From: Blastocladiella britannica
Taxonomy: Eukaryota; Blastocladiomycota; Blastocladiomycetes; Blastocladiales; Blastocladiaceae
Length of the DNA: 48,467 bases
Assembly: GCA_025349905.2 (NCBI GenBank)
Contig: MU624579.1
Location: forward strand, 1-48,467
Direction: 5' to 3'
A program made the position numbers and the translations under genes. Positions 4,124 through 23,164 of the stretch are shown piece after piece (position 1 is the first letter of the stretch; the number at the start of each line of letters is the position of its first letter). The notes beneath the pieces were generated by a model, which saw nothing but the letters and a program-made list of their open reading frames with translations, had not been told where the DNA came from and made no database searches.

Positions 4124-6036
4124 TCACCACCGGCTCCCCGCGTTTTCAGAGCCTGAGCTGGGCACGGCGGCCAGAGCTGCAACGTACACGGCCATGGCGG
4201 CGGCCGTGTCCTCGAGATCCAGTGGGTCGAGCGCGTCCATCATCTAAGTTTGGGAAGTTTCGAGATCAAAGAAACGAGAAATGGGAAAAGAAATGAAAGC
4301 GTACGTCCGCCGCGGTATGGTGGTACCGGAAGTACACGTCCGACGGCGTCGCCGAGTCCCACGCGCCGCACAACGTCTGCGCGCACCAGTCGCCCACATC
4401 CGGCCCGCCGTTCCCCCCACGCCTAACCTCCCCACCACGCCCGCCCACCTCGCGAATCAGCTCAGCAACACTTGCCAGCGCCTCAAACTGCGCGTCGGTG
4501 GTAGCTCCACCAACCGACAAATGCCCAGGCTCAAACACGCCCTCGTCCGACTCGATGGCCGCCACCACCTTCTCGTGCTTGTGCGCGGCAAAGTAGGCGT
4601 GTCCGCCATACAATCCGTACTCTTCGGCCGTGAACGCCACCAGCCGCACGGTGCGGTCCGGGTTGCGTTCGGACGCGTCCAGCAGCAGTTGCAGGGCCTG
4701 GTGCATGACCATGTACCCGTCGGCGTCGTCGGCGGCACCGACGCCAAGTTCCCACGAGTCCAGGTGCCCGCCAATCACGACAATTTCGTCGGGACGGACG
4801 GAGCCAAGGACTTCGATCACCAAGTTGCGGGACACGCCCTGGCCGATGGAGTTGGCAAGCGTGAGGTGCACGCGCGGTGGAGACAGGGTGGAACCGGGGC
4901 GTTGCGAGCGCTCGTACTGCCGCTGGAGCATGTGCGCGTCTTCGACTGCGAGCGCTGCTGCTGGGATTCTATTCTCATTTTTTTTTTGTTGTCAGGTCTC
5001 AGCAATGGCAAATGAGAGGGATCCACGTACGATGCGCGCGTCGAAGCGCCCGTGTGCGGCGTCCGCATGCTGTACGGCGTGACGGACCGGATCAAGACTG
5101 CCACGGCTCCCCTGTTATTACAGCATGAGAAACTGATCCCAAAAAAGGGAGAAAAAAAAACGCACCACTTTTCCGCCCACACCCCCGCGTTCTGGCGAAT
5201 CAGTGACCCATCGCTGTACTTTGTCCACTCGAACGCAATCACCGCGATTTTACCCCTGATCCCGCCCTTGGCACCCACGGAATCCAGTTCCTCTTTACTG
5301 GCCACCACCACCACCTCGGCGTTGATCCCCTCGGGCGGCGTCGGAGCTGTGAACCCGAGCCCGACCACGGCCAGTGGGAACGATTTCAGTGTTTCGGTGG
5401 TCAAAGTCGCCGATTCGGGGCCACGGTTCCAGGTCGGGATCGGGACTTGCTCAAAATGTACCGACAGGTTTTGGGCGCGCGCGCGGGAGGCGACCATGTC
5501 CAGGGCGGATTCCAGCGCTTTGTTAATTGTCGTGAGTTTGATCTGCTGGTGAAATGAATGGATTATCTGGTACCTTGGGAACCGCCCGGACGCGGCCCGT
5601 ATGTGTCTGTGAACACCCATGTGTGAGTGCATGAGTAAAAAAAGTATGCGGGCCGACTCGCGGGTCAAGTATCCAATAATGAGCTCAGCTGATCCGTGAA
5701 ATCATTGCGCCATTTCTTCATCGCCCAACGAAAAGAGAACGGACCCGTCAGCTCGGCCAGCTTGTCCCACGCCAGTACGTCGACCCCCCATTCGTCAGCT
5801 GCCGGCACATGTTTTCCATTGTTTGCATTGGCCAAAAGACGCTCCTTGTTGGCGGCAGAGCGCGCGTAAATCCGTTCGACGAGGGGCCGGAACGCATTCT
5901 GTTGATGGTTGTTTTTGCTCACTGCCATCGTGCTGAATGAGTGCTGCTGGGTGGTCGGGGCAGCGTCGACGGCCGCGATCGCTACGGCCACCAGCAATAG
6001 GCCAAGAGCGGGCCAGGATCCAGTTCCAAGAAGCAT
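4124..6036 (-). CDS. Secreted M28 zinc metallopeptidase, carboxypeptidase Q type
   Basis: Six exons: 6036-5745, 5606-5574 (33-nt microexon), 5517-5169, 5111-5031, 4968-4305 and 4243-4124; 512 aa with every phase closing. Residues 1-25 form a signal peptide (hydrophobic GLLLVAVAIAAV, then DAAP), so it acts in the secretory path or outside the cell. The microexon restores the family motif DTYGPRPGGS. The M28 metal centre is complete: GGHLDSWE (His and catalytic Asp), ADDADG (bridging Asp), TAEEYG (catalytic Glu and metal Glu), ESDEG (Asp) and YHHTAAD (His). IPAAALAVEDA and GAVAVLIRSV are typical of the plasma glutamate carboxypeptidase (CPQ) group, which cleaves dipeptides. The natural substrate is not known. 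Confidence 0.9.
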
Positions 6037-6073
6037 TTTTTTTGTAATTTCAATTGGTTGAAGTGAAAGAGGC

Positions 6074-6609
6074 TCATTTCGCAATCAACGCATCCAAAAC
6101 GCCCTGCTGCTCCTGCTCCATCTTGGCGTACGTCTCGGTCTGTGCCATCAATCTTTTATCTTGAAGTCAATTTATGGCATTGGTGAATCCATATATAAAG
6201 AATACATGCCGATCCAGTTGCATTTGACGCTCACGTAACAAGAACGAGATGCGGTTGAGTTCAGCGACCCGACGTGCCGGCTCGCGTTCCACGGCGGTCC
6301 GCAAGGCGATCGTCTTCAGCTTTTGCTTTTCAATTTCGCCCGCGCGCGCCTCGACAATGGCCATAATGTCGCCGACCAAGGACGAAAACTCGTTGACCTC
6401 TACATCGTTTTTGCAATCAGTAATGATTGAAAATGAATGTAGTAATTTTACTGACTGGATGAGAATTCGCGGCACTGATCGCGCAGTCGCTCCGATGCAT
6501 CGGCTACCGTGGGCGGGATCAGGCGCAGGCGGCCCAGATCATCAAAAGAAACAGTGGCAGCTGCGTTGGTGGCAGGATTGGTGATGGACCCGCCGATGGC
6601 CGAAGACAT
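6074..6609 (-). CDS. IFT20: Intraflagellar transport protein IFT20
   Basis: A small coiled-coil subunit of IFT complex B, needed to build the zoospore flagellum. Exons 6609-6456, 6399-6210 (or 6206) and 6152 (or 6139)-6074, about 140 aa against 132 in animals. The first join (donor GTCAGT, acceptor GATGTAG) gives REFSSKVNEFSSLVGDIM, colinear with the family. ELNRISFLLRERQMQLDR is the conserved C-terminal helix. The last intron is ambiguous. A GC-AG intron (6209-6153) keeps the exact family spacing (LMAQTETYAKME), whereas a GT-AG choice starting at 6205 with acceptor CACAG gives a protein about 3 residues shorter. The flagellar role agrees with the centrin gene at 25.2-25.9 kb. Confidence 0.85.
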
Positions 6610-7019
6610 GTCCGAGGGAAGATGGCGCAGAATTTTCGGTGATTTTATATTGCGAATTTCGCGCCAAACTGAAATGATCATGAGCGAGTTTTCGCCTCAA
6701 CTCTCCAATATAGCATTCACAACCCCCAATTTCTGTCTAATTTTAATCTTCTTCATGTTTCATCAATCGAGTGCGCGGGACGTCTGCGCCAGCCACGAAT
6801 GCCTCTGAACCCTTTAAGATCAGCTTTGAGATTTACCCAAAGTCGTTTTACAGGGCACCCATTGACAAAGCTTTTGGCATTTTGGCATTTTGGCATTTAC
6901 CGTTTCGAATGTCGGCGATCTGGAGGCCCAGCTGACCGAGAAACTGTGTCCCATGGCGCGCGCGGCTGAGCTACATCCGGATGGAAAATGGACCATCAGG
7001 TTGGACGAGAACTTTGCCG

Positions 7020-7490
7020 AGTAGTTTCGTGATAACCTTGACTTGTGGGTTTTTTTTTTGAAGGCGGAAACCACTCGTACACGTTCAAGCGGCTGGACAA
7101 ACGAACCTATAAAAACCTTGTGCGTGTCCTCAATGTCTCTTCCATCGCCTCCTGCTGGATCTTGAACCCGACCTTTTTTCCTCTCGCCAAACCGAAGTAA
7201 TGCTGATCGGCTGATGAAACGCCATTTTATTGGCGTGGGCGGCCTCATCCAGATAGGACAGCGGGTGGTCCTGGAAAAATGCAATGATAAACTGGCGGCG
7301 CTCGGGTTCGCCCTCCGTGTCTGATCGGGATTCTCGCCGTAGAGGCTATGAATCCAGGTGTAAATGGACGTCTGGGACCTGGCGAACACGTATGCGACCT
7401 CTCGGACGGGGATACCAAGGACGAGATGGGCGTGGAGCGCGTGAAAGCGCGTGCAGGCGCTCGCATGGCGCCGGGAGACCTGCAACTTGA
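7020..7490 (-). pseudogene. Decayed Tc1/IS630-like transposase fragment
   Basis: On the minus strand a helix-turn-helix-like stretch (HALHAHLVLGIPVREVAYV, then SQTSIYTWIHSLYGENPD) is followed in another frame by DHPLSYLDEAAHANKMAF and HQPISITSVWR. The same order of motifs occurs in the transposase remnant at 20.3-20.8 kb (NPLLYLNEAVTKYTKHYG, SISVTTVWRILFDAG). The frame changes between the two parts and no DDE catalytic core is present, so it is dead. It represents the N-terminal DNA-binding half of an IS630/Tc1/mariner-like transposase. Confidence 0.6.
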
Positions 7491-7691
7491 CGATTTAGGC
7501 AGGGGTGGACATGGCGGTGCGTATTTATTGATCGTTGATAAAGAATTGAGGGCCGGAATACGCTGCACGGTGTTTGAGAGAGTGGGGCGAAAACGTGGGG
7601 GTCATGCTGAACACTCAAGTTTTGAACGAAAAAGACAATACATTATCATATACACTATTGTGCGATGGCCAAAGTCCACTTGGCCAATCGT

Positions 7692-7760
7692 CACAGGATG
7701 CGGTTGATGACGTGGCAGTTGAGTTCGGCGTGAGGCGGGGTGCCTGCCATGGGTGGCATA
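7692..7760 (-). pseudogene. Duplicated 5' fragment of the neighbouring ankyrin-like gene
   Basis: The minus strand reads AGTPPHAELNCHVINRIL, nearly identical in bases to the N-terminus of the gene starting at 8677 (TSTPPHAELNVHVINRIL). Homology stops after about 65 bases and the frame then ends. It is a truncated duplicate, not a functional gene. Confidence 0.6.
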
Positions 7761-7909
7761 GGGGAGCGTATTGATATTTGTTGCAGTAAAGTTGGTGGGC
7801 AGGGAGAGTGAGGCCCAAAAATATTTCCCTCTAAAAGAACGTAAAATGGCCACAAATTGTCCTTCAAATTGAGTTGTGCCAGTCAATCCTTTCCCTTTTC
7901 CATGGCTTG

Positions 7910-8677
7910 TTAGGGGCGGCGGGTTTCAAGCTCGGGTCCAAACTGTTGCCACCAGCTGAGCACATCGACATGGCCGTTCTTGCTGGCCCAGTCCATGGCA
8001 TTCTCCGAATACTCAAGCTCAAGGCCAGCATTGCGCCACCACTCGAGCACATCGACATGGCCGCTCCTGCTGGCCCAGTCCATGGCCCAATCCGAGTACT
8101 TGAGCTCGAGGCCAGAGCTGCGCCACCACTCGAGCACGTCGACGTGGCCTTCCTCACTGGCCTCGTCCATGGCATCTTGCGAGTACTTGAGCTCAAGGTC
8201 AGTATCGCACCACCACTCGAGCACATCGATGTGGCCGTTTGCACTGGCCCAGTCCATGGCCCAATCCGAGTACTTGAGCTCGAGGCCAGAGCTGCGCCAC
8301 CACTCAAGCACATTGACATGGCCGTTCCAGCTGGCCCGGCCCATGGCCCAATTCGAGTACGTGAATGGCAACCCAAGGGAACGTCGCACCTGCAGCGCCT
8401 CAGTCCACCCCAGCTCGCTTGCCCTATTGGGCGACAGGGACCATGCACAACGGAAAATAGCCATGACCACGTCTGGCGCGTCGTCGCGCAGCATTACGCG
8501 GGCATATTGGGCCAGTCGGCTTCGATGTGCCTGGGCAGTTGCCAGAGATTCTTTGGACAATTGTTCATCGTCGGGCTCTGGACAGTGCTTCTTCGTGGTG
8601 TGCTCGAGCACAGCATGCACGAGGATGCGGTTGATGACGTGGACGTTGAGTTCGGCGTGAGGCGGGGTGCTTGTCAT
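7910..8677 (-). CDS. Ankyrin-like WW-rich repeat protein, small
   Basis: A single exon of 255 aa starting MTSTPPHAELNVHVINRI. The C-terminal half holds about five repeats of 29 residues with the pattern YSxxAMDWASxxGHVDVLEWW followed by about eight variable residues; the Gly-His and Leu-x-Trp-Trp positions are nearly invariant. The repeats are also alike in bases, pointing to recent internal duplication. This resembles degenerate ankyrin repeats and the bigger protein at 35.9-37.6 kb. Such repeats bind other proteins; the partner is unknown. The gene lies between transposon remnants, and its 5' end is copied at 7.7 kb. Confidence 0.75.
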   Translation of the reverse strand: MTSTPPHAELNVHVINRILVHAVLEHTTKKHCPEPDDEQLSKESLATAQAHRSRLAQYARVMLRDDAPDVVMAIFRCAWSLSPNRASELGWTEALQVRRSLGLPFTYSNWAMGRASWNGHVNVLEWWRSSGLELKYSDWAMDWASANGHIDVLEWWCDTDLELKYSQDAMDEASEEGHVDVLEWWRSSGLELKYSDWAMDWASRSGHVDVLEWWRNAGLELEYSENAMDWASKNGHVDVLSWWQQFGPELETRRP

Positions 8678-8737
8678 GGGGTTGTTGAGATTTAATGGAA
8701 GAGTGACCCAGCAAAAGTTTCCACGCACGCACATCCT

Positions 8738-10140
8738 CTACCTTTTTTTTTTACCAATGCAACCGATGTATTTATGGGACCAATTGGCTCGGCCCCGCCC
8801 AAATCAAGAGAGGAGAATCAAAGGAAGAGGGAACACAGCGTGATCGCATCTTGCGCACCGACCAGGACATGTGCGCCACCCCAAGGCCAACCAACCGCGT
8901 GCAGCTGTGAAGCGCACTTGAGCGGGGGAAGGAAGAGAGAAAAGGGCGATGCACATTTGCCTCGAGAGGCGATCCCAGTCAACCACCAGGCGAGCAAAAG
9001 CACGCCGGACTTGGCCGCGAGGCAGTGGTGGGTTGAACGCATGTGCGCCACCCGTGTTGTTGGTGGGCAGTGACGCGGCGCTGGCCACAGGTGGGCTCAC
9101 AGTGCTGTTGGTGGCTGGACCCCGCAGAGCGGCTCGAGGCCCACCAGATCTTGGTACATGGACAACGCGCCACCATGGCAGGCGCGCGCAAACTCGGCAT
9201 CGCCACAGACAAGCGAACGACGCAGCAGACCACCATTCCGGCAACAGACATGGTTGGGCAAGGATGTGGCAAGAGCGATGTTGGCAAAGCAGCATGGGGA
9301 CAGCTGTGCATGGGCATGCCATCAGCTGTGGGTGCACAATCGGGGCGGTTCAGCCAGGTCGGGGGGTTCTGTCACCAGGCATGGGATGAGCTCGGTGGTG
9401 CAGGTGCACTGTGAGAGCCACACTTGCTCGCGAATCATGGCCAAGAAGGCAGTGATCGCATCTGACAGGAGCACAGCCTTGTACTTGCATACATCTGTCC
9501 AGTCCCGAACCCAATCCTCGAGCACGAATGCCTGCGGCCATGAGCAGCGGCGCGGCGTGGTAGTACTGCTCGAGCGCCGCCGTCGCCCCATCCCTTTGCG
9601 CAGCCGGGAGGACCATGGCGCCCTTGGCGCACGCATGCCCGACTGCGTCGGCGACCTCGTTCTGCGCGTCACGACACACCAGGAAATGGCCTGGCCCGTC
9701 GACGGCAACCATGCACGTTGGGCAGTTCGGCGACGGGAATGATGCTGGCCACTGCTCGTGCAACAGCACGCGGGTTGGCAGTGTGCCAACCGCGATCTTG
9801 ACCATCCACGCCGCGTGCACGTCACGGCCAAACGGAACAACTTGACGTGACGCCTTGGAGCCGCCGCCAATCGCCTCAACCATCCTCGCAGCATCGACCC
9901 GGACAACACCGTGGGCCCGCCACACACGACCAACCGCTCGACTCGTTTCGCGGCAGTCAACCAACGCGCGCACAAAGCGCCGCGGATCTCCCTCCAAACG
10001 CACACCTCGCCAACCCCACACGAACCCCAAGTCGCACTCCCGCCGCGCCACCGCGCTGCACGAAAGCACCCCACCCTCACCACGCGCACCACGACCCGCC
10101 AACACAGCGCGCAAGGCTCATGGCCAACCCCGACATGTCT
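8738..10140 (-). mobile_element. Non-LTR retrotransposon (LINE) remnant, 3' part
   Basis: The minus strand encodes the end of a LINE ORF2. WMVKIAVGTLPTRVLLHEQW followed by CPTC, GPGHFLVC and a downstream tail is the reverse-transcriptase-associated zinc finger (K...LPT...C..C...H...C), around 9710-9830. The coding frame covers about 9350-10060 and the RT domain itself is missing. Downstream on the same strand is a non-coding tail (8750-8905) ending in a run of A (T run at about 8743-8752 on the plus strand). That tail recurs alone at 21.73-21.89 kb, which supports its identity as the 3' UTR. The element is 5'-truncated and probably inactive. Confidence 0.6.
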
Positions 10141-10141
10141 T

Positions 10142-10329
10142 AAATGACCATGACCTGGTTCTTGGCCTGCCTTGGGACAGCCGAAATCACCGCGCAACCC
10201 GGCTGGCAAGCTGCCTCACGGCCTGGATCATGCCAGTTGAGTTCATAAAAAAGTATAAGACATCAAGCCACTTCTGTATTGTTCAACTCCGAATAATTAC
10301 AATTTTGGATTTCCCTCCGCGCACGTCAA
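10142..10329. other. Spacer, no gene seen
   Basis: Between the LINE remnant and the RPL33-like fragment I see no frame with the local codon bias. The sequence turns AT-rich after about 10240, as promoters do here. Confidence 0.35.
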
Positions 10330-10380
10330 AAATTTTGGCAGCTATTATCAAAAATGACCACCGCTCGGTAAGTACGATTA
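10330..10380 (+). pseudogene. Stray copy of the RPL33 core promoter, exon 1 and splice donor
   Basis: The stretch from TTTTGGCAGC through AAAAATGACCACCGCTCGG to the donor GTAAGTACGATT is nearly identical to 22215-22267, which is the 5' end of the real ribosomal protein gene RPL33. The copy includes the ATG (10354), the 14-nt first exon and the donor, but no second exon follows. It points towards the gene at 10916. It is either a dead duplicate or a captured promoter; the sequence alone does not tell which. Confidence 0.6.
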
Positions 10381-10501
10381 TTACTCGAAAAGCACCTGGA
10401 GGAACCACGACCGACCGTTTGCTCGCACGCACGCCTGTAAAATTGTTGTCGAGTGAGACTAAATTTTTGTATTGAACAATTCCCGAGGAACACGCTAACG
10501 G

Positions 10502-10793
10502 TTAACACCTGAATCTCCTTCGGCCTGGCGCCGAAGGAGGTTTTCCCGGTCCGTACATGACCACATGAAACTCTAAATTGAGTGCACGACGGAGACCAAC
10601 ACCGGTCGCCGGCCCGCCGCCGAGGAAAACTTGGTGGTTGGGTTTGTCCTCGTCGGTGAGCGCGTACTTGGCCTTGATCCGTGCGACAAATTTGTCGATG
10701 GACGACTCGCCACCGACCAGAGTGCGATAGCGGCGACGGCGGTGCGACTTATGCACGGGGGAATCGAGGACTTGCTGGGCCTTGTTGTACTTA
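10502..10793 (-). pseudogene. Fanzor (TnpB-like nuclease) remnant with the catalytic region deleted
   Basis: The frame QQVLDSPVHKSHRRRRYRTL, then SSIDKFVARIKAKYALTDED and GGGPATGVGLRRALNLEF aligns with the intact Fanzor at 15.9-19.0 kb (KSHRRRRYRSLIGSKSSIDK; GGGPTLSVGLRRALSLIF), and the bases are also closely alike. Relative to the intact copy about 45 bases around IMYGDWSNPNG are missing. The frame then runs out before the RuvC-II Glu, zinc finger and RuvC-III Asp, and nothing of the N-terminal two thirds is present. It is therefore a dead internal fragment of a second Fanzor copy, lying head-to-head with the gene at 10916. Confidence 0.8.
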
Positions 10794-10915
10794 CCGTCCA
10801 TTGTATTTTTTTTATTAGCGGGAGGATCTTTTGTTGTGTGGTTGGTGTCGCGAATGGTGTCTTAATAAAGAACCACCAATATTTATCGCTCCTTGAATAT
10901 TTTCTTGCAATTGAC

Positions 10916-12085
10916 ATGGCCGGCCGCAGCAACAAAAAGTCAACTGTGGCCACGACAGCTCCCCCGCCATCGCGAAAGCGCCCCGGGCTCAGTGCCACTA
11001 TTGCGTTTCCGTCAACTTCAGACGAAAGCGACAATGCTCGACCTACCCCGAAACGCGTGCGGCGGACGCTTGCGACCCTTGTGCTTAGCTCTGACGTCGA
11101 CGATGACGACGTGATTCTGGACGTCGACGGTGACGATGCGAGTTTGGACATCGGCAATGATGTGATTCGGGACATCAAGGGTGACGATGTGAGTCTGGAC
11201 AATGGGGAGCCCACCTTCATGCTGCAACCCCAACAGCAGGATTCGCCTGACATTATACTCCAGCACTTTACGCCGACTTTGCTGCGCGGGGGGCAATTCG
11301 TCTTGGGGGAAGCAGATGGTACCACTTCATGTGCTTTTGCATCTTTAAAAATGCTCAAGCCATTTTCTACAGATCTTTTATTCTTGGGCGAATTCACTGT
11401 TACGTCGTCGGAGCGTTTTCAGGTGCCCCCTGCACTCATTGCCGCCAATGGTACTTACACTGGCTCGGCCGATGCCGCGATTGGCGAGGTGCTTCTGATG
11501 GCCATCGAGCAAGTACTCGTCTGCACCCGCGCCATGATCGAGCAGCGGGACGGCAACTATTACTACCAATACCGGCCCCGCCCAAAACCAACCGACATGC
11601 CCTTGTCTGAAACCGTCGTCTATCGGTTGGCGACTCCGTGCCGGACCCTTGCTGACGCCCTCAAGGTCAACGAATCCCATTTCTCAGCCGCGATGAAAAA
11701 AGACGCGTACTGGAAGCAGATGAGGCGCTTGCGGAAGACTGACGACAAGGTTTGTGAACGAGAGAAATGGTCCAACGAAACCCTGAGACCGTACCCTGTC
11801 GACAAGCGGCTCGAGGTCCGGACGCAATGGATTCGAAAGGGCACACCAATACCAGTGCTGCTAAAGCTCGCCGAGGTGCCTGACATCATCCGGACTCTTG
11901 ACCCGGCACTGGTGCCTTTGGTGCGCGTAATCGTATGCGCTCTTCCGGGGCAGTGCGTTACGGGCGACATCATGTCGTACAAGTGGTGCCTTTGCCTTCG
12001 AGATCGTGCGATCAACGATGCTGCTCGATCGGGCGACGAAGTGATCTTGAGGCTTCTTGATCCACTGCTCTTGAAGTTGTTCTGA
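10916..12085 (+). CDS. Orphan protein with acidic N-terminus, next to Fanzor remnant
   Basis: From ATG 10916 the frame runs 389 aa. A 54-nt stretch (11319-11372, GTACCA...TTTCTACAG) looks like an in-frame intron; if removed the protein is 371 aa. The N-terminus has a basic patch (RKRPG, PKRVRR) that may be a nuclear signal, then a repeated acidic motif (DVDDDDVILDVDGDD, IRDIKGDDVSLDNG). The rest is globular and unrecognised, with YWKQMRRLRKTDDKVCERE and VPLVRVIVCALPGQC as landmarks. I know no family for it. It is codirectional with the SNF2-like gene 336 bases downstream and may belong to the same element as the Fanzor, whose N-terminus is similarly acidic. Confidence 0.65.
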   Translation: MAGRSNKKSTVATTAPPPSRKRPGLSATIAFPSTSDESDNARPTPKRVRRTLATLVLSSDVDDDDVILDVDGDDASLDIGNDVIRDIKGDDVSLDNGEPTFMLQPQQQDSPDIILQHFTPTLLRGGQFVLGEADGTTSCAFASLKMLKPFSTDLLFLGEFTVTSSERFQVPPALIAANGTYTGSADAAIGEVLLMAIEQVLVCTRAMIEQRDGNYYYQYRPRPKPTDMPLSETVVYRLATPCRTLADALKVNESHFSAAMKKDAYWKQMRRLRKTDDKVCEREKWSNETLRPYPVDKRLEVRTQWIRKGTPIPVLLKLAEVPDIIRTLDPALVPLVRVIVCALPGQCVTGDIMSYKWCLCLRDRAINDAARSGDEVILRLLDPLLLKLF

Positions 12086-12420
12086 CCGTGGACGGACGGC
12101 ATGAATACATGGATTTTTTTTTTTTTTTTTTTACATTGGCAGCTCTCGTTCGGATTGTGTTTGGGACGCCTTCCTTTCCCCACATTTAGTCCACGGCACC
12201 AACACCTTCAACGGCACACTCGGCCAATATTAATCGTTTCTGGCCCTTTTCACTGTGACGACGATCCGCCCAGTGTGCTCCTCGTCTCCCCACAGGTGGC
12301 TAAATCTCATTTCTTTCCATTCTGCGGGGGTTAATATTCATAAGGAAAGTCGATCACAGACAGTGTCTTTTTCTTCACCTTTTGCCGGGCGTATTTCGTC
12401 CCAACCCAAATCTTGTTTCA
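12086..12420. other. Spacer between the orphan gene and the SNF2-like gene
   Basis: It holds a T run (about 12114-12132) after the upstream stop and a CT-rich, AT-richer stretch that is the likely promoter of the downstream gene. No coding frame stands out. Confidence 0.45.
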
Positions 12421-15268
12421 ATGGGCGACTTCGTCCCTGTTCCGCTGATGGGTGCCGGCAATATCGGCGATGCGGCCGTCGCAATCAATCTTGAGTGGCT
12501 CGATATCCTGCCTGATCAACAAGCCATGGTGGCTGCCATGCTCGCCAAGGAGAGCGTTGCCTTCACGCCCATCCAATTTGAGATCGAGCGCACAGTCGCC
12601 ATTCAATTTGGCGCGAATGGTCCAACTCGACGCGCACGAGCCGATCCTGGCCCCCGCTCCCTGTACACCGATGCCGTGTGCCCAATTTTCATAGATGTAT
12701 CGGCATTTGAGTCCGGGTCCATTGTCACTGCGTTGGCATTTGTCGCTGCCAGCAACAACCGCAACTTGCGGTTTGTCCCGAACCTTGGCGCCGAGCTGGG
12801 GCTGTTCTGGCCCCGATTGCCGGACGATATGCCGCGCATCCCTTCGCGTGCGACGCTCGTCGTCTGCCCTCGACTGCTGATGGCGCAATGGGTTGCACAG
12901 GCGCACTCCGTGATTTTTGGCCCCATCATTGCGATTTCCAATTTGGCGGAGCTCAAGGGCACCTCGTGGGCCGCGCTCTCAACCGCCGAGCTCGTTATTG
13001 TCGCCAAGGAGCTGCTGTTGCACTCGCAGTTCGCCCAGCCGCTTATGATCGACCAGGCCAACCGAGCGGACTTTGACGCTGCTGTCTTTGGTGACCGGCC
13101 GCCTGTTCCGGGCGAGCCCATGTACGATGTCCACAAGAAGATGCTCGACGCGGCGTGTTCTGATGTGGCGCGCATCCTGGACGACGGTGCCGAGGTCACC
13201 GGCCCCATGGTCTTTGTTGCGCCGTTCCTCGACCGTTACCACTGGCGGCGCGCCATTGCGCACAAGCTGCCGTCAACCATTAGTGACCCGCGGCCGAATA
13301 CCACGGGAACATGGACATTGCTTTCGAATATCAGCGCCGGCTCGTGGTTATCGGTTGTGCCGCCGCCGCCTCGGCCCGACCACGGCCGCGACGACCTCGT
13401 CCCGCTCGCTCACGTCAAGGAGGCAATGATGGGAGCCGTCATCACTGGTCGGTGGGGCATGGACCTACCCGATCACGCAGCAAAGCGTCTGGTGCCCTTT
13501 CTGGTTTGCTGCTGCCTCGGACTCAACTCCCCTGCAGCCCCTTTCGTTCCACCCGCCGTGTACACGGAGGTTCCGATTTACCTTTCGGAGATGGAAACGG
13601 TGGTCCTCGGTCTCACTGTGCTCATCAACCCTGTAGACGATGGGTTTGCTGTGCGGGCAGCGCAGCACCACCACATGGTTCGGTACGAGGTTGGTACAGG
13701 TGGCAAGGACGTCAAGCCCTTGGAGACACGGTACTGGTTCCTGCAGATGGCGTCGCAATCGAATCACTTCCTCAGACGCGCCTATGGTCTCGACCCGTTG
13801 ATTGGCAGCATGCTGAGCGCCAGTATGGTCCAGCTGCAGGAGCCGCCTGCCAGTTTTCAGACCAGTCATGGCCTGACTGTCGCTGACCTCTTCGAGTGGC
13901 TCGACCCTTTGCAGGTGTCCGATCAGGAGCTGAAGAAACTGCGCGAAATGCCGCGAAAGGTCAACAAGCTCGTGCCGCATGGGAACCAAGCTGGGAAGTG
14001 GCACCGGAAGTTGCTGCAGGCGCATAGTGCGCGTGTCCGGGCGTACGTGCACGATTTTTCTCCCTTGATTCAAGAGCTCACGTCCCCACTGGCCGAAGCG
14101 GCGACCGGCTGCAAGTCTTGCGGAGGCGATTATGCGGACGCCGATGTGGTGCTGCTGATGGCGACGAGACCGGCGCCGACGTGGCAATGCCAACGCTGCC
14201 AAGGTCAAGTGGACGGTCGTGAGGCGGTACCTCGTTTCATGTGCCAGCCGCGACAGTCCCGAGTCGCGCATGCAGCGGCAATAGCAGTGCTCGAGGAGCG
14301 GCAGCTGGGCCTGCATCGGATCGCCCACGCCCAGGGCCAATACGCATTGTTTTTGGACAAGGTCGATGTGCCCACGTGTACGGCCGAACGAGTCGTTGCT
14401 CGGCAAGCGCACCTCCCCACAGCGCGCACTCCCATCGCGGTCACAGACTTTATGGGTATTTGCGGGTCGCGGGTGACCCAGCTCGTGTGCCATGTCGCTC
14501 GCCTCCTGGACAGCACCAACTCCATCCCGGCCAAGGTGGTTATTTTCTGCGAGTATTTGCAGCAGATTAACCTCCTGCACGACGCTCTGACCTGTGCTGG
14601 CGTCCGATGCACTGCTGTCCGCCATGGCATCCACACGTACTACCCTCTGCAGGCCTTCAAGGTTGGTCTGGCACCTGGGACCGCTGCGGATGGCCAGCCC
14701 ATTGACACGGCGCCGGCGCTGGTCCTGATCATGCCGTACTCTGCTTGCGACTATTCTTTGGAATTGACGGAGGCCACCCACGTCGTCCTATCGCACCCGT
14801 ATGTGGGCCCGGACACTGCGGTCAAGTACGAAGGCTATGCGCCTGGTTGCCGGCTCAATAACAAGGAGTGGGGGGACGCGAAGCGGGCAGAGTGGTCGAA
14901 CGAGCGGTGGCGAGTGGAACGGCTCAAGTGGCGCGAGATCGAGCGCCTTGCCGTGGGACGTGTCGTGCTTGGTGCGTTCGCTTTTTTTCATTTCATTTTC
15001 ATTTTGTACTCTGACGCCAGTTCAAACGAAAATGATAGCTGGGCAAGCCAACTCGGTTCAAGTAACGCGTTTCTACGCGGCACACACGCGCGAGGCCGAG
15101 ATTGCGATGGGCTATGGTGACCCGCTGGATTTCCATGCAGACGAGCACACGATCGCCGCTCTGGAGCAGGACAAGCGGGATCGGTTCCCCAAGGACTGGA
15201 CTGGGTCGGGAGTGGATCGGTTGGCGGATGCTGTGATATATTCCTATCCTCGTCGCAGCGCAAAATAA
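12421..15268 (+). CDS. SNF2-like helicase-fold protein with degenerate ATPase motifs
   Basis: Exons 12421-14971 and 15021-15268 (49-nt intron, donor GTGCGT), 932 aa. SNF2 landmarks can be followed in order: IFIDVSAFESGSIVTALAFV (about residues 89-108) sits where motif I (DEMGLGKT) belongs but lacks the GKT; TLVVCPRLLMAQW (about 145) is motif Ia; LMIDQAN (about 209) replaces the DEAH box; AKVVIFCEYLQQINLLHDAL (about 707) is motif IV; LELTEATHVVLSHPYVGP is motif V; GQANSVQVTRFYAAHTREAE, created by the splice, is motif VI. A CxxC-(27)-CxxC zinc motif (CKSC...CQRC, about 564-600) is inserted. SNF2 proteins move along or remodel DNA using ATP. Here motifs I and II are altered, so ATP hydrolysis is doubtful and a DNA-binding scaffold role is possible. 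The frame and codon bias are intact, so it is not an obvious pseudogene. It is convergent with the Fanzor gene. Confidence 0.7.
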
Positions 15269-15918
15269 TATCATCACCCCAGTAGATCGAGGCAATTTTC
15301 GTCTTGGCAGTAACAAATGCATTTCATCTCACTTATAGACGAGCTCCTGGCCTGCGCCTAAACTGACTTTGATCTCGCAACCAACTTCGATCCAAATGGT
15401 GCTTCACTCGCATCGTTCCCGCCCGCAAAATGCCCAAGGCGGCGGCACTTGATCACAGGGATCGGCGCCGCGGTAGTCGGCAATGGTGCAGCCCAGGTGG
15501 AGTGGCACAAGTCGTAACCCCCGTTGAACCTGGCGCGCGCCATGCCAGTATGAGTAAGAGGAGCCGAGCGATGGAACACAGCTACCGGAGCTGGCTGTTT
15601 TCCCTGCAAGCGTTTTGTGACGAACGTTTTTGTTCCCAATAGACTCGAATTTTTTGAATAATGTTTCCGTAACCTTTGACCAGAACGTATAAGTAGAGGA
15701 TTTTGTCTAGACCGTCTGATATGACACGACCCGTTTCAGACACTTGCAATTTCCACGACGAACCAAGCGCGGTGAGCACGAGCACTTGGTTTCCGCCAAA
15801 ATGTAAGCCATTTTCGTTTGATCCAAAGATGAAAAAAAAAAAAAAAAAAATTTGGAAAATCGTTTGTTAGTTATGCCCGCTTATCTAGCCCGATTTGCTT
15901 TTAACGACCAACAAGGAA
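15269..15918. other. Convergent spacer between SNF2-like and Fanzor genes; possible guide-RNA region
   Basis: This 650-base stretch follows the Fanzor stop codon on the minus strand, the side where TnpB/Fanzor elements usually carry their guide (omega/fRNA). The plus strand shows a 14-base inverted repeat at 15917-15930 (GGAATCAAGATTCC) overlapping the Fanzor stop and an A run at 15832-15850. A minus-strand frame, about 15582-15830, reads VLVLTALGSSWKLQVSETG and then DKILYLYVLVKGYGNIIQK; it looks protein-like but lacks codon bias and a start. I cannot show an RNA here; fRNA is a positional guess. Confidence 0.3.
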
Positions 15919-18900
15919 TCAAGATTCCTGCTCCGGAGTATTCGGATTATCAACACCGTCTGGGCCATAGACCTGGTGCTGGGGTTCGTGGCGCAAGACC
16001 CGAAGGGCCTTGGCGGTGATATTGGCGACGGCAAGCGCGTCACGGTTCCACCACTGGCTCTTGCATTCGGCGCGGGGACAGCGCAGCAAGTGGTGGACCG
16101 GGGCGCGGGTTTCGCGAGGGCCGTCGTCATTCGGGTGTGGGTGGGCGTCTGAGGCTGGCGGCAGCCGGATCGTCACGCGGTTGAGAGGATGCATGACTGG
16201 GCCCATGCACACCGGGCAACAGCTCGATGTCCGAAACTCATTCACAAGGACGAGCACAAAGATCAGCGAAAGCGCGCGACGGAGACCAACACTGAGCGTC
16301 GGCCCGCCACCACGGAAGCCATTGGGGTTGGACCAGTCCCCGTACATGATGGCAATGGGCACGTCCTCGCCCGTCTCCCCCGACTGCACAGTGTACTTGG
16401 CCTTGATCCGCGCGACAAACTTGTCGATGGACGACTTGCTGCCGATCAGGGAGCGGTAGCGGCGACGGCGGTGCGACTTGGTCGCATAGTACACCCGGAG
16501 GGACGCGAGCACTTGCTGGCGCCTGAGCAGGTAGCCCCGGAACGACTCGAGCATGCAGCTGCAGGCCGAGCGACCGTTGGTGCCGAGGCTGGTCTCGATG
16601 GCCTTGATGTCGATCGTGGTGCTGGCCTTGTAATTGGCCATCTGGTTGCGTGCCTCGGCCGCGTTGCGGGTGTGCCCGGCCTCGTCCGCCCGCACGGTCG
16701 CCTTGTAGTCAAGCAAGTCGCCCTCGTACTTGGGCTGCTTGGCACGGCCCTGCCCGACGTAGTCAGGATCGCGGAGAGCCTCGCGCGTTCCCGCCACCCA
16801 CTCAAATCGGGCCTTGATGCAGCCACCGTCGTTGTTGTTGCCGTCCACGTCCACGGGGTCCACGCCGTCCTGGTTGGCCGGTGGCTGGCGGTCCTTCCGA
16901 TGGCCCGACCCGAGTGTCAGCAGGCTCCGCTTGCCCGGATCGGCCCCGAGTAGCGTGTATTTGTCGAGCAGCGCCGTCCGCGCGTTGTTGTCCAGATCAT
17001 TGACGTACGGCGGATCATCCGGGACAAACGCACCACCTCGATCGGCCCCAGTGTACCGCGTCAGCCCAAGCTGGCTCTCGTCGACATATCCCAGGCTGGT
17101 CTGAAACCCGTCGGTGGACATGCTGTTGCCGAAAACCAAGACCTGCTTGACCGGGAGAGGGCCTACCTCGACTGACCGCATGGGCGGACGCTTGTTGCGG
17201 CGACCGTTGGGCGGGACCGTGGCCGACAACTTGGTCACCGACATCCAAATGGCAGTGCTGAAGATGGCGGAGAACTTGTCAGGCAGGCGTAAACCACCAG
17301 TGCGCACGGCTTTTTCCGGCACGAGCGTGTACCTGTTCCTGATGCCGCTCAGATCGAACACGACACCGGGACACAGGGTACCGAGCGCCGACCGCAAACG
17401 CTCCAAGAACTGTTGTCGGCTGGTCAGCTCGTAAGGCCAGAGCCGAACCAATGTCCCAGTGTTGATCCGAATGTGCCGCTGGATGAGCGTGGTCCGCAGC
17501 GGCAGTGGCGAGAACAGCCTGGCCGACGATTCCTCGAGGATCCGGTTCATGTGCACCATGTACGGGAGGTAGTGGTGGGGATTGGCGGCTAGATCGTACA
17601 CAAAGTTGATGCGGGTGTCGCGGAGCGTTGGGGGACCAAGAAGCCTCAGCTGCGGGATAAGCACGGCCTGCACGTCCAAGGTGCTGTGCTGTTGAGGGCG
17701 AAAAAAAAAAAATCAAGCGACTGATAAAAAAAAGTGAAAATAGAAAGACAAAAAACGGACCACGTCGTCTGGTACGACTCCGCCGTACACGTAGTGAATC
17801 CACTTCTGGGCGCAACGTTTCAACGCGGCCGTCCTGGCGTTGGCTGGGAGGACGTCAATGGTGGCGCGCGTCGCCTCGGCCACCAGAGCGCGAGTACACC
17901 GCCTCACGTACTTGGTGAAGTGCGTCTTAATGTTTTGCTTGTAACTGGCCTGGAACTGGAAGGCCTCGATGCCAAACACTTCGGAGAGGTGGAGACCACT
18001 GACTCGCTCGCCAAAGAGGTCCGCGTTGTCGTCGAAAGCCCGCCGGATACGCGCGTCCAGCTCCCTGGTGCCAACAGAACGGCCTATTAAATTGGGTCAG
18101 GGTCAGTATATCACTGCTTTTTGAAGGAATTAAATGTACCTTCTCCCCGATGGGCCACTTCCCTGGCCACGCACGAGAGCAGGCGGCGGAAGAGGGACGC
18201 CGAAAAACCGAAAATCTTGTCGTTGGCCATGGTGCGAGCGGTGGCGTGCGTGAACCCGTTGGTGCCTTCGCCGGCCGTCAGCTCCTCGAAGCGCTCGAGG
18301 ATCATGAGCTTCAGGACCATCGTGGCTTGCTCGACGGCACATTGCGTCCGCTTCACGGCGTCTTGGATCGCTGCATCGAGCCGAGAGCTGCTGATCAACT
18401 TGGTGATCCGGCAAAAGCGGGTGATGCGGGCGCGAGCCATTTTGTCAGGGACGGGCAGGGGAGCTTTGCTCGGCTTGGACGGCTTGGGGAAATCCTTGAC
18501 GGCCTTGCGACCCTTGGGTCCCTTGCGAGCTTTGCGAACGTTGCCAACTTTGCGAGCTTTGCGCGAGGTGTGCGAGGTGTGAGCTTTGGGAGTAAACGCA
18601 TTGTCATCGTCGTCGTCATCGACCTCCTCGTCGTAAGTATCGTCGTCGTCGATATCGGCATCGTTGTCGATATCCCAGTCATTGTTGGAGTCGAACGAGT
18701 CGGAGTTGGAGTCGCCAAGAAAGTCGGAGAGGTAAGCGTCGCTATCGTCGCCAAAGAGAGCGCCGGACTCGAAATCCCATCCGTCCGTGTCAGACAAAGG
18801 GGCGCTTGAGGGGCGTTTGGGTTGACGACGAGCCAGTGGGGCGATTGGGATGGGAGGGAGTCGAGCGTTTGGGGCAATCATGTTGTTGTCGTCGTCAACA

Positions 18901-19025
18901 ATATTGATATAGTCGCCGTTTTCTGAGCTCGTGCTTGGCGACAGAGGGCCGAGAGGAGAAGCGGCGTTGTTGGTGCCAGTGTCATCAAATATGATATCGA
19001 CGTAGTCGTCGTTCTCGGAATCCAT
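15919..19025 (-). CDS. Fanzor, eukaryotic TnpB-type RNA-guided DNA endonuclease
   Basis: Three exons, 19025-18140, 18083-17761 and 17688-15919, give 992 aa; the phases close with introns of 57 and 72 nt (second donor GTCCGT). Residues 1-145 are acidic and disordered, followed by a Lys/Arg-rich stretch (RKARKGPKGRKAVKD, about 165-178) fitting a nuclear signal. HHYLPYMVHMNRILEES and LPLRTTLIQRHIRINT match the Fanzor N-terminal core. The RuvC nuclease is split as in TnpB: GADPGKRSLLTLG (Asp about 653), VNEFRTSSCCPVC (Glu about 887) and WWNRDALAVANI (Asp about 953). A zinc finger (CxxC...CxxxxC) lies between the last two. KSHRRRRYRSLIGSKSSIDK and MYGDWSNPNGFRGGGP are family signatures. All catalytic residues are present, so it may be active; the protein would use a guide RNA to cut DNA, probably helping transposon maintenance. 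A Fanzor1-like type is likely but not proven. Confidence 0.9.
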
Positions 19026-19360
19026 GTTTGCTATGGATAATAAATGCTGGATGTGAGAGGGCGAGGGCAGGAGTTTTAGTGCTATTCCAACACCTTCCAA
19101 TTACTGACTCACGTGTTTCGACCTAAAATTGAAAAGGTAGTACCTTTCCTTCGGAAACAAACCGTCAAGGGCCATGCCCTATAGCAATGCAGTTACAATA
19201 AAAAAACTTTTAATTCATGATATTAATACAGACAAGAAAAAAAACGCAAGATCATGTCAGCTACGCGTGCTTTGGCCGAGCGGCCGTCGGCCTCCTCGTC
19301 TGACCCCTCATTGTCCTCCTCACCAGCAGCGGCCTCCGCGTCCTCGACCTCTTGGTGGGA
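19026..19360. other. Spacer upstream of the Fanzor gene
   Basis: AT-rich sequence upstream of the Fanzor start, the probable Fanzor promoter. A plus-strand frame from 19254 (MSATRALAERPSA, Ser/Ala-rich, 53 codons) is open, but it overlaps the end of the minus-strand gene and looks like an antisense shadow. Confidence 0.35.
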
Positions 19361-20119
19361 TCACTTCATGACAGCGGCTGTTCACAAGAGCAAGGCAGTG
19401 TTGGTCAGTCATTGATCGACTTATGTGGGAAATATAAATTAATCATACCAAGAAAGAAGTCCTCCGGCTCGCCCGCGTCGTCGTCCGCACCCACGTCCGT
19501 CGGCTCCTGCTCGGTCGGCTTTGCCACCACCACAATTTCTCAGCAGCGAAAGTGATCTTTGGTGGATCCTTGGCCATGGCGCGAACGGACACTGGCGACG
19601 CCATCGCGAGGCAAGACACACTCACCAGGTCCGATCGAACCAGTGGTTTCCATGTCACCCTGAGAATATATTCATTTCAGCTGTCAATATGAAATGTACC
19701 AAGGCAAAGGGAAAAAGAAAGGGTGACGCAGTTTCATGACCAGCACTCAATGTAACAGGCGTGATGATGCGTCGCTCAGCAAAGTTGAGCTTAGTCAGGG
19801 CCAGCAGGACGCCAATCAAGAAACCGTCAGCAATGGCAAAGAGCGGTGTGACGACCTTGGCGTCCTTGTCCTTTTCCAGGTCCTTCTCGACATTGCGCGG
19901 TGCTCCAGGACGCTCGTCTCAAAGTAGCCAGCAACCACCTTCCCAGCTGCATCATCGCATTCGACGCTGTAGGTGGAGGAGTGTGGTCATGGTTAAGAGA
20001 CAAGAGCAGCTGCAACAAAAATGCTCTGAGCTGGGAGTGGGACAGATCGCGGTTGACGGTTGGAATGGGATGCGATTTTACAATGCTCTTGTAACGGCGT
20101 TTTACCAAATCAAACCCAT
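19361..20119 (-). pseudogene. Unrecognised membrane protein gene with a frameshift
   Basis: Strongly codon-biased minus-strand segments can be chained as exons 20119-20106, 19966-19757, 19659-19626, 19538-19449 and 19377-19361. They read MGLICVECDDAAGKVVAGYF, then VEKDLEKDKDAKVVTPLFAI with a hydrophobic helix (LFAIADGFLIGVLLAL) and KLNFAERRIITP, then GDMETTGSIGP, then EIVVVAKPTEQEPTDVG and an acidic end in FFLAAVMK. A one-base frameshift is needed at about 19890 (near GCAATGTCG), so it is a young pseudogene or holds a sequence error. The donor at 19756 (GTTACA) is weak. No family is recognised. Confidence 0.4.
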
Positions 20120-20333
20120 GGTAAACGCTGCCGCTGGCTCCCGCAAAAGTGTGCGAAAAGATAAAGCTGTCTGAGGACTTGAGATGATCCACAGCATCGG
20201 TCGTGGTCTGTTCCCTCGTTTTTTTTTTTTAAACCACCGATGTATTGTCGGTTTCACGGTTTCGCAGTCTTGAGCGCAGTTTCGCTGACACTTTCACCAA
20301 CACAAAAACCCTCTCTAAATCAAATATAACTCT

Positions 20334-20800
20334 ATGTCTCCTGCCCCGAAGGCCCGCGCTACCCCAACCCCACCGGCCCTTGCTGCGAATCGCTCTCGAG
20401 CGTCGATCGATGCTGCAGCCTAACGTCAAATCATGGAAGCCGTGTCCCTTGGACACACGAGCGTAAACACAAAATACCACGCGCTCTACATGTTTTATTT
20501 CCTGGGCCTGACGCAGGAAATGATCGGCGAGCTGACGCGCAAGGGCCAATCAACCATTTCGGATTGGATTAGCAAATTCGAAGAAACGGGTACCCTTGCA
20601 CGAAAAGAACGCGAAATTTTTTACCGCCGGGTTGGCGAGGCCCGCCGGAGCTGGATCCTTGACTTGTACAAGAAAACCCGCTTCTCTACCTCAACGAAGC
20701 GGTGACCAAGTACACCAAGCATTATGGTGAATCTATCTCTGTGACGACCGTCTGGCGTATTCTGTTTGACGCTGGGCTGCGCTGGAAGGTACACGAAGCA
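20334..20800 (+). pseudogene. Tc1/IS630-like transposase, N-terminal part, broken
   Basis: The frame starts MSPAPKARATPTPPALAAN, meets an in-frame TAA at 20421-20423, and continues MEAVSLGHTSVNTKYHALYM. It then reads LGLTQEMIGELTRKGQSTIS (helix-turn-helix) and ILDLYKK, and shifts frame in an A run at about 20670 to NPLLYLNEAVTKYTKHYG and SISVTTVWRILFDAGLRWK. After WK a donor-like GTACAC follows, but no further transposase is found: the next sequence is an unrelated minus-strand gene. A stop, a frameshift and loss of the DDE domain show it is dead. It is related to the remnant at 7.0-7.5 kb. Confidence 0.65.
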
Positions 20801-20814
20801 TTTTTTTTTATTGG

Positions 20815-21665
20815 TTTGCCTTGCATGAACGCCCGGCTGAATCAACTCGAGTGCCCAGACCCGCCACGCCATGTTTGTTACATGGTACTGAGGGAAAGCG
20901 GCCTTGAGACGCGCAACCATGGCCGGAACCAGCGTCTCGGACGGCGCTCCTACGCGATCGCGCACCGCAGGCGTCAACACGTCGCGTTGGAACGCGTTGT
21001 ATTTGGCAGCTTCGTCGAGGCCCGGGCCATACTGCAAGATGGTCACGGTCAAGGGCTTTTCTTGGCCGGGGACCAGCCACCCATCTTCTTGGGAGTGATG
21101 GCTAGGACGCCTTAGAGCTGTGGTTATATTAGCCAAGAACGTAAGGCAAGGCATTGGTCTTGCGATGTACCAGGGTAGAAGGCGAGTCCTTGGGTTAGGA
21201 GCGAGTGCCGGCGACCATTGTGCTCCAAAAAGATCGCCACGGGAAAAATTTCCTCCGTGTTCGTGCTGGGCGGAAGAGTCCATTTGCCGTCAAGCAGCTC
21301 AGCAACACCCACAAAGTGTCTGCCATACGTGGCAAACAGAGTCCGCATCAGCTCAGCCGGGTCGGTAGCGTAGGAGAGTCCGCCAGGAGCGGAGGAGTTC
21401 TTGCGAGAGCCATGTACGGCTTGATGACGACCGCACCGACGGAGACCTCGTAGCGGGCGCCGGGAGGAAGGGCGTCCTCGTCATCCCCGTCACCGCCAAT
21501 GGGGGCGTCGTCATCGTCGTCGTCGTCGTCGCCAGGGCCGGAGACGTTGCGACCAGGCGGGGGAGTCAAGTCACCGGACGAGGAGGGCGTCGACAAGGCG
21601 CGACGAGCCCGAGAAGGGGTCGAGGAGGCAGGCACAGTCGACAAAGACGAGGCCCGGGGAGACAT
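20815..21665 (-). pseudogene. Unrecognised gene, frameshifted and cut by the transposase remnant
   Basis: Coding-like minus-strand segments: 21665 to about 21393 (MSPRASSLSTVPASS, an eight-Asp run, then ARYEVSVGAVVIKPYMALA), a one-base shift, about 21392-21171 (GLSYATDPAELMRTLFATYG, FVGVAELLDGKWTLPPSTN), an intron 21170-21118 (GTACAT...CACAG), and 21117 to about 20815 (GWLVPGQEKPLTVTILQYGP, FPQYHVTNMAWRVWALELIQ). The frame then runs into antisense transposase sequence beyond a T run at about 20804-20811, so the original 3' end is missing. No family is recognised. The codon bias shows it was once a real gene. Confidence 0.4.
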
Positions 21666-21725
21666 TTTTAATTATATTGAGTCGGTCTTTAAGAGTCGAG
21701 GATGAGAAGTGGGGGTGTTTTCGTA

Positions 21726-21890
21726 GTTTTTTTTTTCCCAATGCAACCGATGTATTTATGGGACCACTTGGCTCGGCCCCGCCCAAATCAGAAGAAAAAC
21801 AAAAGAAAGGAGAATACAGCGCGGTCGCGCAATGTGCGCCGACCGGGACATGCGCGCCCCCAAAGCCAACCAACCGCGTGCATTTGTGGT
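21726..21890 (-). mobile_element. Solo 3' tail of the LINE (or a SINE sharing that tail)
   Basis: About 160 bases match 8743-8905 closely (plus-strand landmarks CCAATGCAACCGATGTATTT, TTGGCTCGGCCCCGCCCAAA, CCAACCAACCGCGTGCA). On the minus strand the copy ends in an A run (T run at 21728-21737 on the plus strand), as expected of a 5'-truncated retroposed copy. It lies between the two broken minus-strand frames. Confidence 0.65.
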
Positions 21891-22028
21891 GGCCTGTTCC
21901 CTCGTTGCCACGGTGGTGGGCGCGATATAGTTTGAGCCAGAGCTGGGCAAGCGGATGAAGGCGATCTTATCGTCGTTTTTCCACGCGTGTGGTTGGGCAG
22001 CGGCCGCGGTTCCAGGATCACGAGCCAT
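21886..22028 (-). pseudogene. Small unrecognised reading-frame fragment cut by the LINE tail
   Basis: From an ATG at 22028 the frame reads MARDPGTAAAAQPHAWKNDD, then KIAFIRLPSSGSNYIAPTT, and passes directly into the retroposed tail at about 21888. It may be the first exon of a gene interrupted by that insertion. No family is recognised. Confidence 0.3.
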
Positions 22029-22240
22029 GTCAAGAATTGATTTTAATATGTTATATTACAGGTCGCAGAGGCAGAATAATGTACATTATATTGTTCCAAG
22101 CCGGCGAGACTCGGAACAGCATCAGAATCCTTAAAAGTTGCATCATTTAACACGTTTCCGGAGAACGTCGTCGCCCTTCAGTAATCCCTTTCCCCACGCT
22201 TTTTGTCATAATTATAATTTTTGGCAGCCATTCTTCAAAA

Positions 22241-22760
22241 ATGACCACCGCTCGGTAAGTACGATTTGTTGTATAGTCAGAGACTGCGGACGCACCCGCG
22301 CAACCGCTCGCCATATGGTTGATACCGTGGATGCATTGGCGTGTCATTTTTATCTACAACAACTTAATTTTATTTAATATCGATATAGTCTTTATGCGAA
22401 AGGAAAAGTGCTTGGGTATATGCGCGCCCAGCGTAACCAGAACACCAAGCAGGTGCTGCTCCGTGTTGAGGGTGTCCAGACCATTCAGGACGCCGAGTTC
22501 TACCTTGGCAAGCGCGTTGCGTACGTGTACAAGGCCGAGCGGGCGATTCTCGGGTCCAAGATCCGCGTCATGTGGGGCCGCATTTCGCGCCCGCACGGCA
22601 ACTCGGGTGTGGTCAAGGTGATTTTCAAGAACTCTGTGCCCCCCAAGACGTTCGGTGCTCGCGCTCGTGTGGTACGTTTACTAATTGTTTTGCAGTAGTT
22701 TTTTGTGGTGCTGATTTTACTGTATTTGTGCAACAGATGCTCTACCCGTCCCGCATCTGA
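22241..22760 (+). CDS. RPL33: 60S ribosomal protein eL33 (RPL33; animal RPL35A)
   Basis: Three exons: 22241-22254 (14 nt), 22389-22671 and 22737-22760, giving 106 aa. The first join makes MTTARLYAKGKVLGYMRAQR, colinear with the fungal family; the second gives ARVMLYPSRI at the C-terminus. AEFYLGKRVAYVYKAERAIL and KIRVMWGRISRPHGNSGVVK are diagnostic. The large first intron after a tiny first exon is typical of fungal ribosomal protein genes. TTTACTAAT downstream of the second donor may be its branch site. The 5' end is duplicated at 10.33-10.38 kb. Confidence 0.97.
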
Positions 22761-23164
22761 ATGGGGTTTTTCTGGATCCAGGAATGAAATATCAATAATA
22801 TTTAGTTTCTGGCCTGAATTATCATTTCTCACATCTGAATTTGAGACAGGATTATAATCATCCTCTCCATTTCGCGACTGTGGATTTTGCGTGAGACATT
22901 GATGCTGCGTTAAGAACTTTAACATCGCCATCATTGTCGCGCCCAGTCGATTGAATTATTTAACCAGTTTTGGAGTCTGCCTCGGCTCCATTCGCGACTG
23001 CAATTGTGCCTGAGACATTGAGACTACGTCCAGCAGGAATGCCATCGTCGCCGGCGTGGTAGCTCCCTGTCAGGTGATGGATAGATTTGAGAATTGGAGA
23101 CAAACTCGCATCATTGACTCTTTTTCTTCCATCTCCTTCCTCCACAAACCAATCGTAATCAAAT
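22761..23164. other. Spacer with a pair of about 40-base direct repeats
   Basis: Between RPL33 and the ZPR1-type gene the unit CGCGACTG..(A/C)TTGTG or similar followed by TGAGACATTGA occurs at about 22878-22916 and again at about 22992-23030, 114 bases apart and diverged. The remainder is AT-rich and includes the promoter of the gene at 23165. No coding frame is convincing. Confidence 0.4.

Follow-up and report, generated by a model that had tools for sequence, protein, structure and literature searches.

The 48,467-nt stretch of Blastocladiella britannica DNA analysed here (the window) encodes a divergent Fanzor1 with an apparently intact catalytic core. The family to which it belongs is carried by a transposable element, and we consider it likely that the 3′ end of the gene doubles as an ωRNA scaffold and that one subfamily shares its element with a pair of genes, ORF1 and the weakly helicase-like ORF2 (HEL). 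B. britannica is a zoosporic fungus, recorded in the taxonomy as a blastocladiomycete.

Features of the Fanzor1 gene, its 3′ end and the neighbouring ORF1/HEL pair in the window
Feature	Position	Strand	Basis or remark
Fanzor relic, residues 794-884	10556..10777	-	upstream of, and divergent from, ORF1
ORF1 frame	10577..12085	+	first 58 codons antisense to Fanzor relic
ORF2 (HEL), weakly helicase-like, BC828DRAFT_395597, 926 aa, small 3′ intron	12304..15268	+	public protein match
Probable HEL-side element end	15252..15275	+	aligned to miniature elements
Stretch past probable 3′ end, putative guide read here	15860..15893	-	sharp 3′ end of the family
Probable element 3′ end	near 15894-15890	-	closes conserved block
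Candidate ωRNA scaffold: 7-bp hairpin in last codons, then block CCCAGACGGTG..AATCCGA	15894..16013	-	alignment of 3′ segments
Fanzor1 gene, 992 aa	15919..19025	-	three exons (19025-18140, 18083-17761, 17688-15919); homology; dN/dS
Intron 2, 72 bp, GTCCGT..CAACAG	17689..17760	-	same position in C4 copy
Intron 1, 56 bp, GTACAT..TAATAG	18084..18139	-	absent from that place in C4 copy
Low-complexity N-terminus, acidic then basic, residues 1 to ~185	18471..19025	-	without counterpart in C4 and C525

The Fanzor identity anticipated by the original prediction is borne out by similarity to solved Fanzor1 structures and by the D-E-D/C4 motif. Searching the PDB with the window protein alone recovers Guillardia theta GtFz1 (E 5.7e-22), SpuFz1 (2.1e-10) and PpFz1 (3.8e-10), and a profile built from three genomic copies recovers the same proteins at 1.4e-36, 9.5e-16 and 3.6e-15, respectively; the nuclease is distant in sequence from all three. 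The three predicted RuvC acidic residues are present as D653 (GADPGKR), E887 (VNEFRTS) and D953 (WWNRDAL), as is the predicted C4 zinc finger, composed of CxxC (894/897) and CxxxxC (940/945). Their spacing, D653-X236-TS-XX-C4-X6-RD when counted by hand, agrees with the Fanzor/TnpB motif D-X(125-275)-[TS][TS]-X-X-C4-X(5-50)-RD (PMC3627910, in part). The three-copy profile additionally finds 11 other, distant proteins of 622–624 aa among 8000 candidates scored, and all three acidic positions (D, E and D) are invariant both in alignment A2 and in alignment A3, the latter combining the window protein with these 11. A single-sequence protein search, likewise with 8000 candidates scored, returns the window's own 546-aa ORF as its sole match. 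The protein is predicted to be RNA-guided and active.

Similarity to Fanzor/TnpB profiles, which had been proposed as a check, holds for the Fanzor1 structures but fails for the curated models, with Pfam PF07282 TNB scoring 13.7 bits (cut-off 26.3) and NCBIfam guided_TnpB 11 bits (curated cut-off 100). Because both scores fall short of their cut-offs the lineage is divergent, and the divergent branch suggested earlier is a reasonable description, given that seven other loci in the genome pass the TNB cut-off.

Exon 3 of the window gene has at least 66 matching rows in the 15.3-Mb assembly searched, revealing a multicopy family whose counts are lower bounds because many of the rows are short or contig-terminal. 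A second copy, C4, is 46% identical and retains the catalytic and zinc motifs in an exon 3 frame that is open up to the terminal stop. The C525 copy is interrupted, and many other rows are decayed or 3′-only. This multicopy occurrence, together with the sharp 3′ ends and miniature elements described below, identifies a Fanzor1 family carried by a transposable element.

A second Fanzor/TnpB-like family comprises the seven loci above the PF07282 cut-off (L001–L007, on contigs C499, C3, C348, C37, C215, C64 and C2), with 0 of the 7 contigs among the 66 exon 3 rows. The coding strand was read for L001, L002, L004 and L007, leaving L003, L005 and L006 outside the motif comparison; DEYRTSKLC occurs in all four and DRDANAARNM in three loci. 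The window protein can hardly be aligned with L004 (E 0.15), which among PDB entries matches a TnpB-like protein best (E 0.0047). The L004 E value, this TnpB-like match and the absence of shared contigs therefore indicate that two Fanzor/TnpB lineages coexist in the genome.

Reconstructed from the minus strand of the window, the gene is an uninterrupted three-exon reading frame, as foreseen, extending from an ATG at 19025 to a stop codon that finishes at 15919. Intron 2 is supported because the C4 copy accepts an intron at the same place; intron 1 is placed by its GT-AG ends, and alternative GT-AG pairs also leave the frame open, with 78 combinations yielding more than 900 aa. The 992-aa product is unusually long, as the original prediction pointed out, most Fanzor1 proteins measuring 600–700 aa (PMC11423790, in part). 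The ~400-residue disordered N-terminal extension proposed at the same time is, however, ruled out by the alignment to C4, in which residues from ~190 onward are conserved at 45% identity; the extra N-terminus, judged against the two fuller copies C4 and C525, amounts to ~185 residues instead. The expected basic stretch is found in the translated protein and begins at residue 156.

Three pairwise dN/dS values among three copies, 0.42 (window–C4), 0.38 (window–C453) and 0.50 (C4–C453), all lie below 1, a feature that would also fit a host-retained (domesticated), immobile Fanzor of a nearly single-copy lineage with a private acidic/basic N-terminus. Such a reading would further agree with the relic at 10556–10777 being the sole close copy seen (90% identical over 87 nt and 74% over 73 nt, the closest relative of the intact gene), with the lack of ORF1 or HEL on the 5′ side of the intact gene in the window, and with the outcome of a search for the 5′ end of that copy's own element, which found none. 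We regard domestication as rather unlikely, since the same relic and the decayed relatives record a mobile past and the candidate ωRNA block is retained at the 3′ end.

The 3′ end of the family is sharp. With a query extended to base 941, 29 bases beyond the shared end, 16 group-B rows besides the query's own stop at query bases 911–919, 14 of them at 911–912, and the DNA after the shared end differs between copies. In a second comparison of flanks the query itself ended at the 3′ end, so that its end points alone prove nothing.

Alignment of 18 of the 28 3′ segments extracted, ten near-duplicates being left out, reveals a 7-bp hairpin formed by the codons A-K-A-x-R-V-L and 99.2% paired. Identical codons account for 127 of 140 same-residue pairs at the six stem codons of eight sequences, compared with 128 of 245 over the preceding 11 codons (rank test, P 0.0016, to be read as indicative given that the sequences are related and that the stem codons were placed after the fold was seen); with an earlier codon grouping, in which some of the stem was missed, the difference was smaller (0.84 vs 0.60). 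Beyond a variable spacer containing the stop codon, five of the six lineages compared show a clear conserved block, CCCAGACGRTG..ATCCGA; the sixth, L030, keeps half of it. The 7-bp helix gives no compensatory support because it hardly varies. A second helix has 14 double-change cells, a number reached by 0 of 500 shuffles, and 3 pairs with double changes, reached by 272 of 500. The folding energy of two single copies is not unusual, with 149 of 200 and 29 of 200 shuffles, respectively, folding as well.

Each of the three solved Fanzor1 ωRNAs has an SL1 of 7 bp, and their lengths are 75–150 nt (PMC11423790, in part), and the ωRNA of GtFz1 overlaps its last 17 codons (PMC10432273, in part). The conserved hairpin and block, taken with this 7-bp SL1 and codon overlap, lead us to read 16013–15894 (minus strand) as a scaffold, and the 3′ end of the gene as a probable overlapping ωRNA scaffold. 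The window copy has a shorter spacer, and its conserved block is translated. A frame running through a block that is post-stop elsewhere might mark a silent, recently dead copy; this is improbable in view of the open frame, the complete set of catalytic and zinc residues, and dN/dS values of 0.38–0.42 against the other two copies.

ORF1 and HEL lie together beyond the 3′ end of the intact gene. The true start of ORF1 is probably an ATG near 10916, because the first 58 codons of the frame are antisense to the relic. A public B. britannica protein matches ORF2 at 100% identity across 91% of the query; ORF2 has no match to a Pfam helicase domain, its profile search yields helicase DbpA as a weak match (E 0.31), and by eye we take it to resemble SNF2 motifs with a degenerate first motif. 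The DbpA match and the motifs weakly suggest a helicase-like protein of SF2/SNF2 resemblance. ORF1 has 10 rows in the genome, one of which is the antisense of the intact Fanzor, and HEL has 20; the two adjoin at C40, C216, C79 and C601.

Four miniature elements (C46, C526, C256 and C266), each ~760 bp long and 85–93% identical in pairwise comparison, are present at unrelated sites. Each joins the terminal ~205 bp on the Fanzor side to the terminal ~560 bp of HEL, back-to-back with tails outward, and retains the HEL intron (antisense to Fanzor); both ends are common to the four, the HEL-side end of L048 having diverged. At C229, HEL residue 489 is joined to a 42-residue Fanzor piece (residues 340–381, E 3e-6) in the same back-to-back orientation, and in the window the relic just upstream of ORF1 and divergent from it follows the same order. 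The miniature elements with both ends, C229 and the window relic therefore place Fanzor and HEL in one element type, to which the window adds ORF1.

Neighbourhood by chance nested insertion, with Fanzor and HEL never forming one element, is very unlikely in the face of four such similar miniature elements sharing both ends at unrelated sites, of the order repeated at C229 and the window relic, and of a Fanzor piece at five of seven retrieved HEL loci (none in C216 and C79). It would accord with the lack of HEL at 18 of 23 retrieved Fanzor loci, including C4 and C525, many of these loci being short or cut by contig ends, and with the tail-to-tail placement of the intact gene and HEL in the window, ~620 bp apart. 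That tail-to-tail pair was itself considered as a single element and rejected: HEL ends at ~15270 and Fanzor at ~15890, and the DNA between the two ends yielded, in the comparisons made, no family match apart from one of 49 bp to C549.

The 3′-anchored copies have a common 3′ end with an A-rich tail and variable 5′ ends, a pattern that LINE machinery acting on Fanzor transcripts by target-primed reverse transcription could generate in place of a DNA transposon or a Helitron-like element. We consider this origin unlikely: intron 2 is kept in C4 and C525, the HEL intron is kept in the miniature elements, though antisense to Fanzor, no target-site duplication is seen by eye at the 5′-truncated group-B copies L054, L056, L057 and L058, and the same 3′-overabundance characterizes Helitron-linked Chlamydomonas Fanzor1 (PMC3627910, in part).

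No transposase for the Fanzor element was found. The four miniature elements display no terminal inverted repeats by eye and no target-site duplication apart from one possible 8-bp case (L044, doubtful, by eye), and thus lack the inverted repeats and fixed duplication of DDE cut-and-paste elements. Seven inverted pairs of at least 20 nt occur in 5500–23000, and none was taken as an end of the intact copy, I2–I5 and I7 being poly-A/T and I1 and I6 lying inside coding or GC-rich DNA. Helitron Rep (PF14214) has no match in the genome, with control genomes equally silent. A single transposon uniting Fanzor with ORF1 and the helicase-like gene, devoid of a classical transposase and moved, along with its miniature copies, by the joint action of the helicase-like protein and the RNA-guided nuclease, is quite unlikely in this lineage.

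A LINE-borne Fanzor and a viral origin were also considered and rejected. An RNase H fragment at 9350–10117 at first seemed linked to Fanzor but is a separate repeat family (27 rows, PF00075), and the reverse transcriptase next to its C117 copy is part of a Ty3/gypsy-like polyprotein (by eye). Four stretches in viral contigs matched a pattern, with 0 confirmed (close relatives only). The window carries, at 9045–10117 (minus strand), a repeat fragment with a LINE-like tail and 27 rows in the genome; the fuller copy in L053 encodes an RNase H domain (PF00075, E 6e-10) and what by eye resembles a zinc knuckle at the C-terminus. A second miniature type (L045 1759–2611 and relatives) combines the Fanzor 3′ end with a 600-bp region X in which parts of the RNase H repeat lie in reverse orientation, the junction being common to 5 of the 17 copies compared.

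Elsewhere in the window, direct repeats flank the repeat-rich stretch in the same order (10330–10379/22216–22266, 92%, 51 bp; 8743–8909/21727–21888, 83%, 167 bp). By eye, the right 51-bp copy represents the 5′ end of an apparent ribosomal protein eL33 gene together with its first exon and splice site, which makes the left copy look like a duplication of that gene's upstream region. A degenerate helix-turn-helix of a Tc1/mariner-like transposase (PF01498 below cut-off, E 0.004) lies 5′ of the Fanzor gene at 20663–21115 (plus strand). An ankyrin gene with 87-bp tandem repeats occupies 7929–8364, where four overlapping 174-nt copies are found, the other three 77–79% identical to the first, and a tRNA gene lies at 45126–45212 (minus strand; Rfam, 42.1 bits).

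The preferred reading, a mobile-family Fanzor1 with a 3′ end serving also as scaffold, suggests a mode of action in which a segment starting ~30 codons ahead of the stop and running to the element end would be transcribed as ωRNA scaffold, while the host DNA flanking the element would supply the guide. Guide-matching DNA would then be cut by the complex beside a short motif and, by analogy with TnpB, cutting of the allele without the insertion may help copies persist or spread. In one subfamily, Fanzor would share its element with the divergent ORF1 and ORF2, with the Fanzor and ORF2 tails as element ends, and the miniature and 3′-only copies would be mobilised in trans.

What seems new here is the architecture of the lineage and its helicase-like partner, Fanzor1 in fungi, including Allomyces, being already known. 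A literature search returned nothing joining Fanzor with Blastocladiomycota, and a Fanzor-helicase element may already be in print. The role of Fanzor for host elements is presented as an open question in parts of PMC10432273 and PMC3627910; it becomes testable here because one small genome offers an apparently intact gene, 3′-only and miniature copies, a candidate scaffold and a linked helicase-like pair.

The best solved relative is GtFz1 (PDB 9cer, E 1.4e-36), with its RuvC-I, GNW/GDW, zinc-finger and WWNR stretches aligning to the window protein and its ωRNA overlapping the last codons, as in the candidate here (PMC10432273, in part). The third RuvC position is N in GtFz1 (PMC11423790, in part) and D953 in the window protein. 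The RuvC glutamate lies in a different local sequence in GtFz1, and the window protein has ~185 extra N-terminal residues.

Allomyces belongs to the same phylum as Blastocladiella, and Allomyces macrogynus, likened by description only, shares Fanzor1 with the window family. Spizellomyces punctatus is a zoosporic fungus, and its SpuFz1 is a weaker match to the window family (E 9.5e-16). Fanzor1 of A. macrogynus is known as AMa, with three families (PMC3627910, Table 1, in part). S. punctatus likewise has a Fanzor1 with a 3′-end ωRNA and protein-less short ghost copies, whereas its Spu-1 has ~30-nt terminal inverted repeats (PMC10432273, in part), of which none is seen in the Blastocladiella elements. 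Inton and Enton, likened by description only, are transposons bearing an SNF2 helicase (PMC3627910, in part), whereas ORF2 has no Pfam helicase match and is Fanzor-linked. The Chlamydomonas CRe elements differ in having Helitron ends and duplications, the Helitron Rep profile being silent here as in the control; their Helitron2-linked Fanzor1 families CRe-1/2/3 nevertheless comprise 3′-overabundant, 5′-truncated and internally deleted copies, as does the family described here (PMC3627910, in part).
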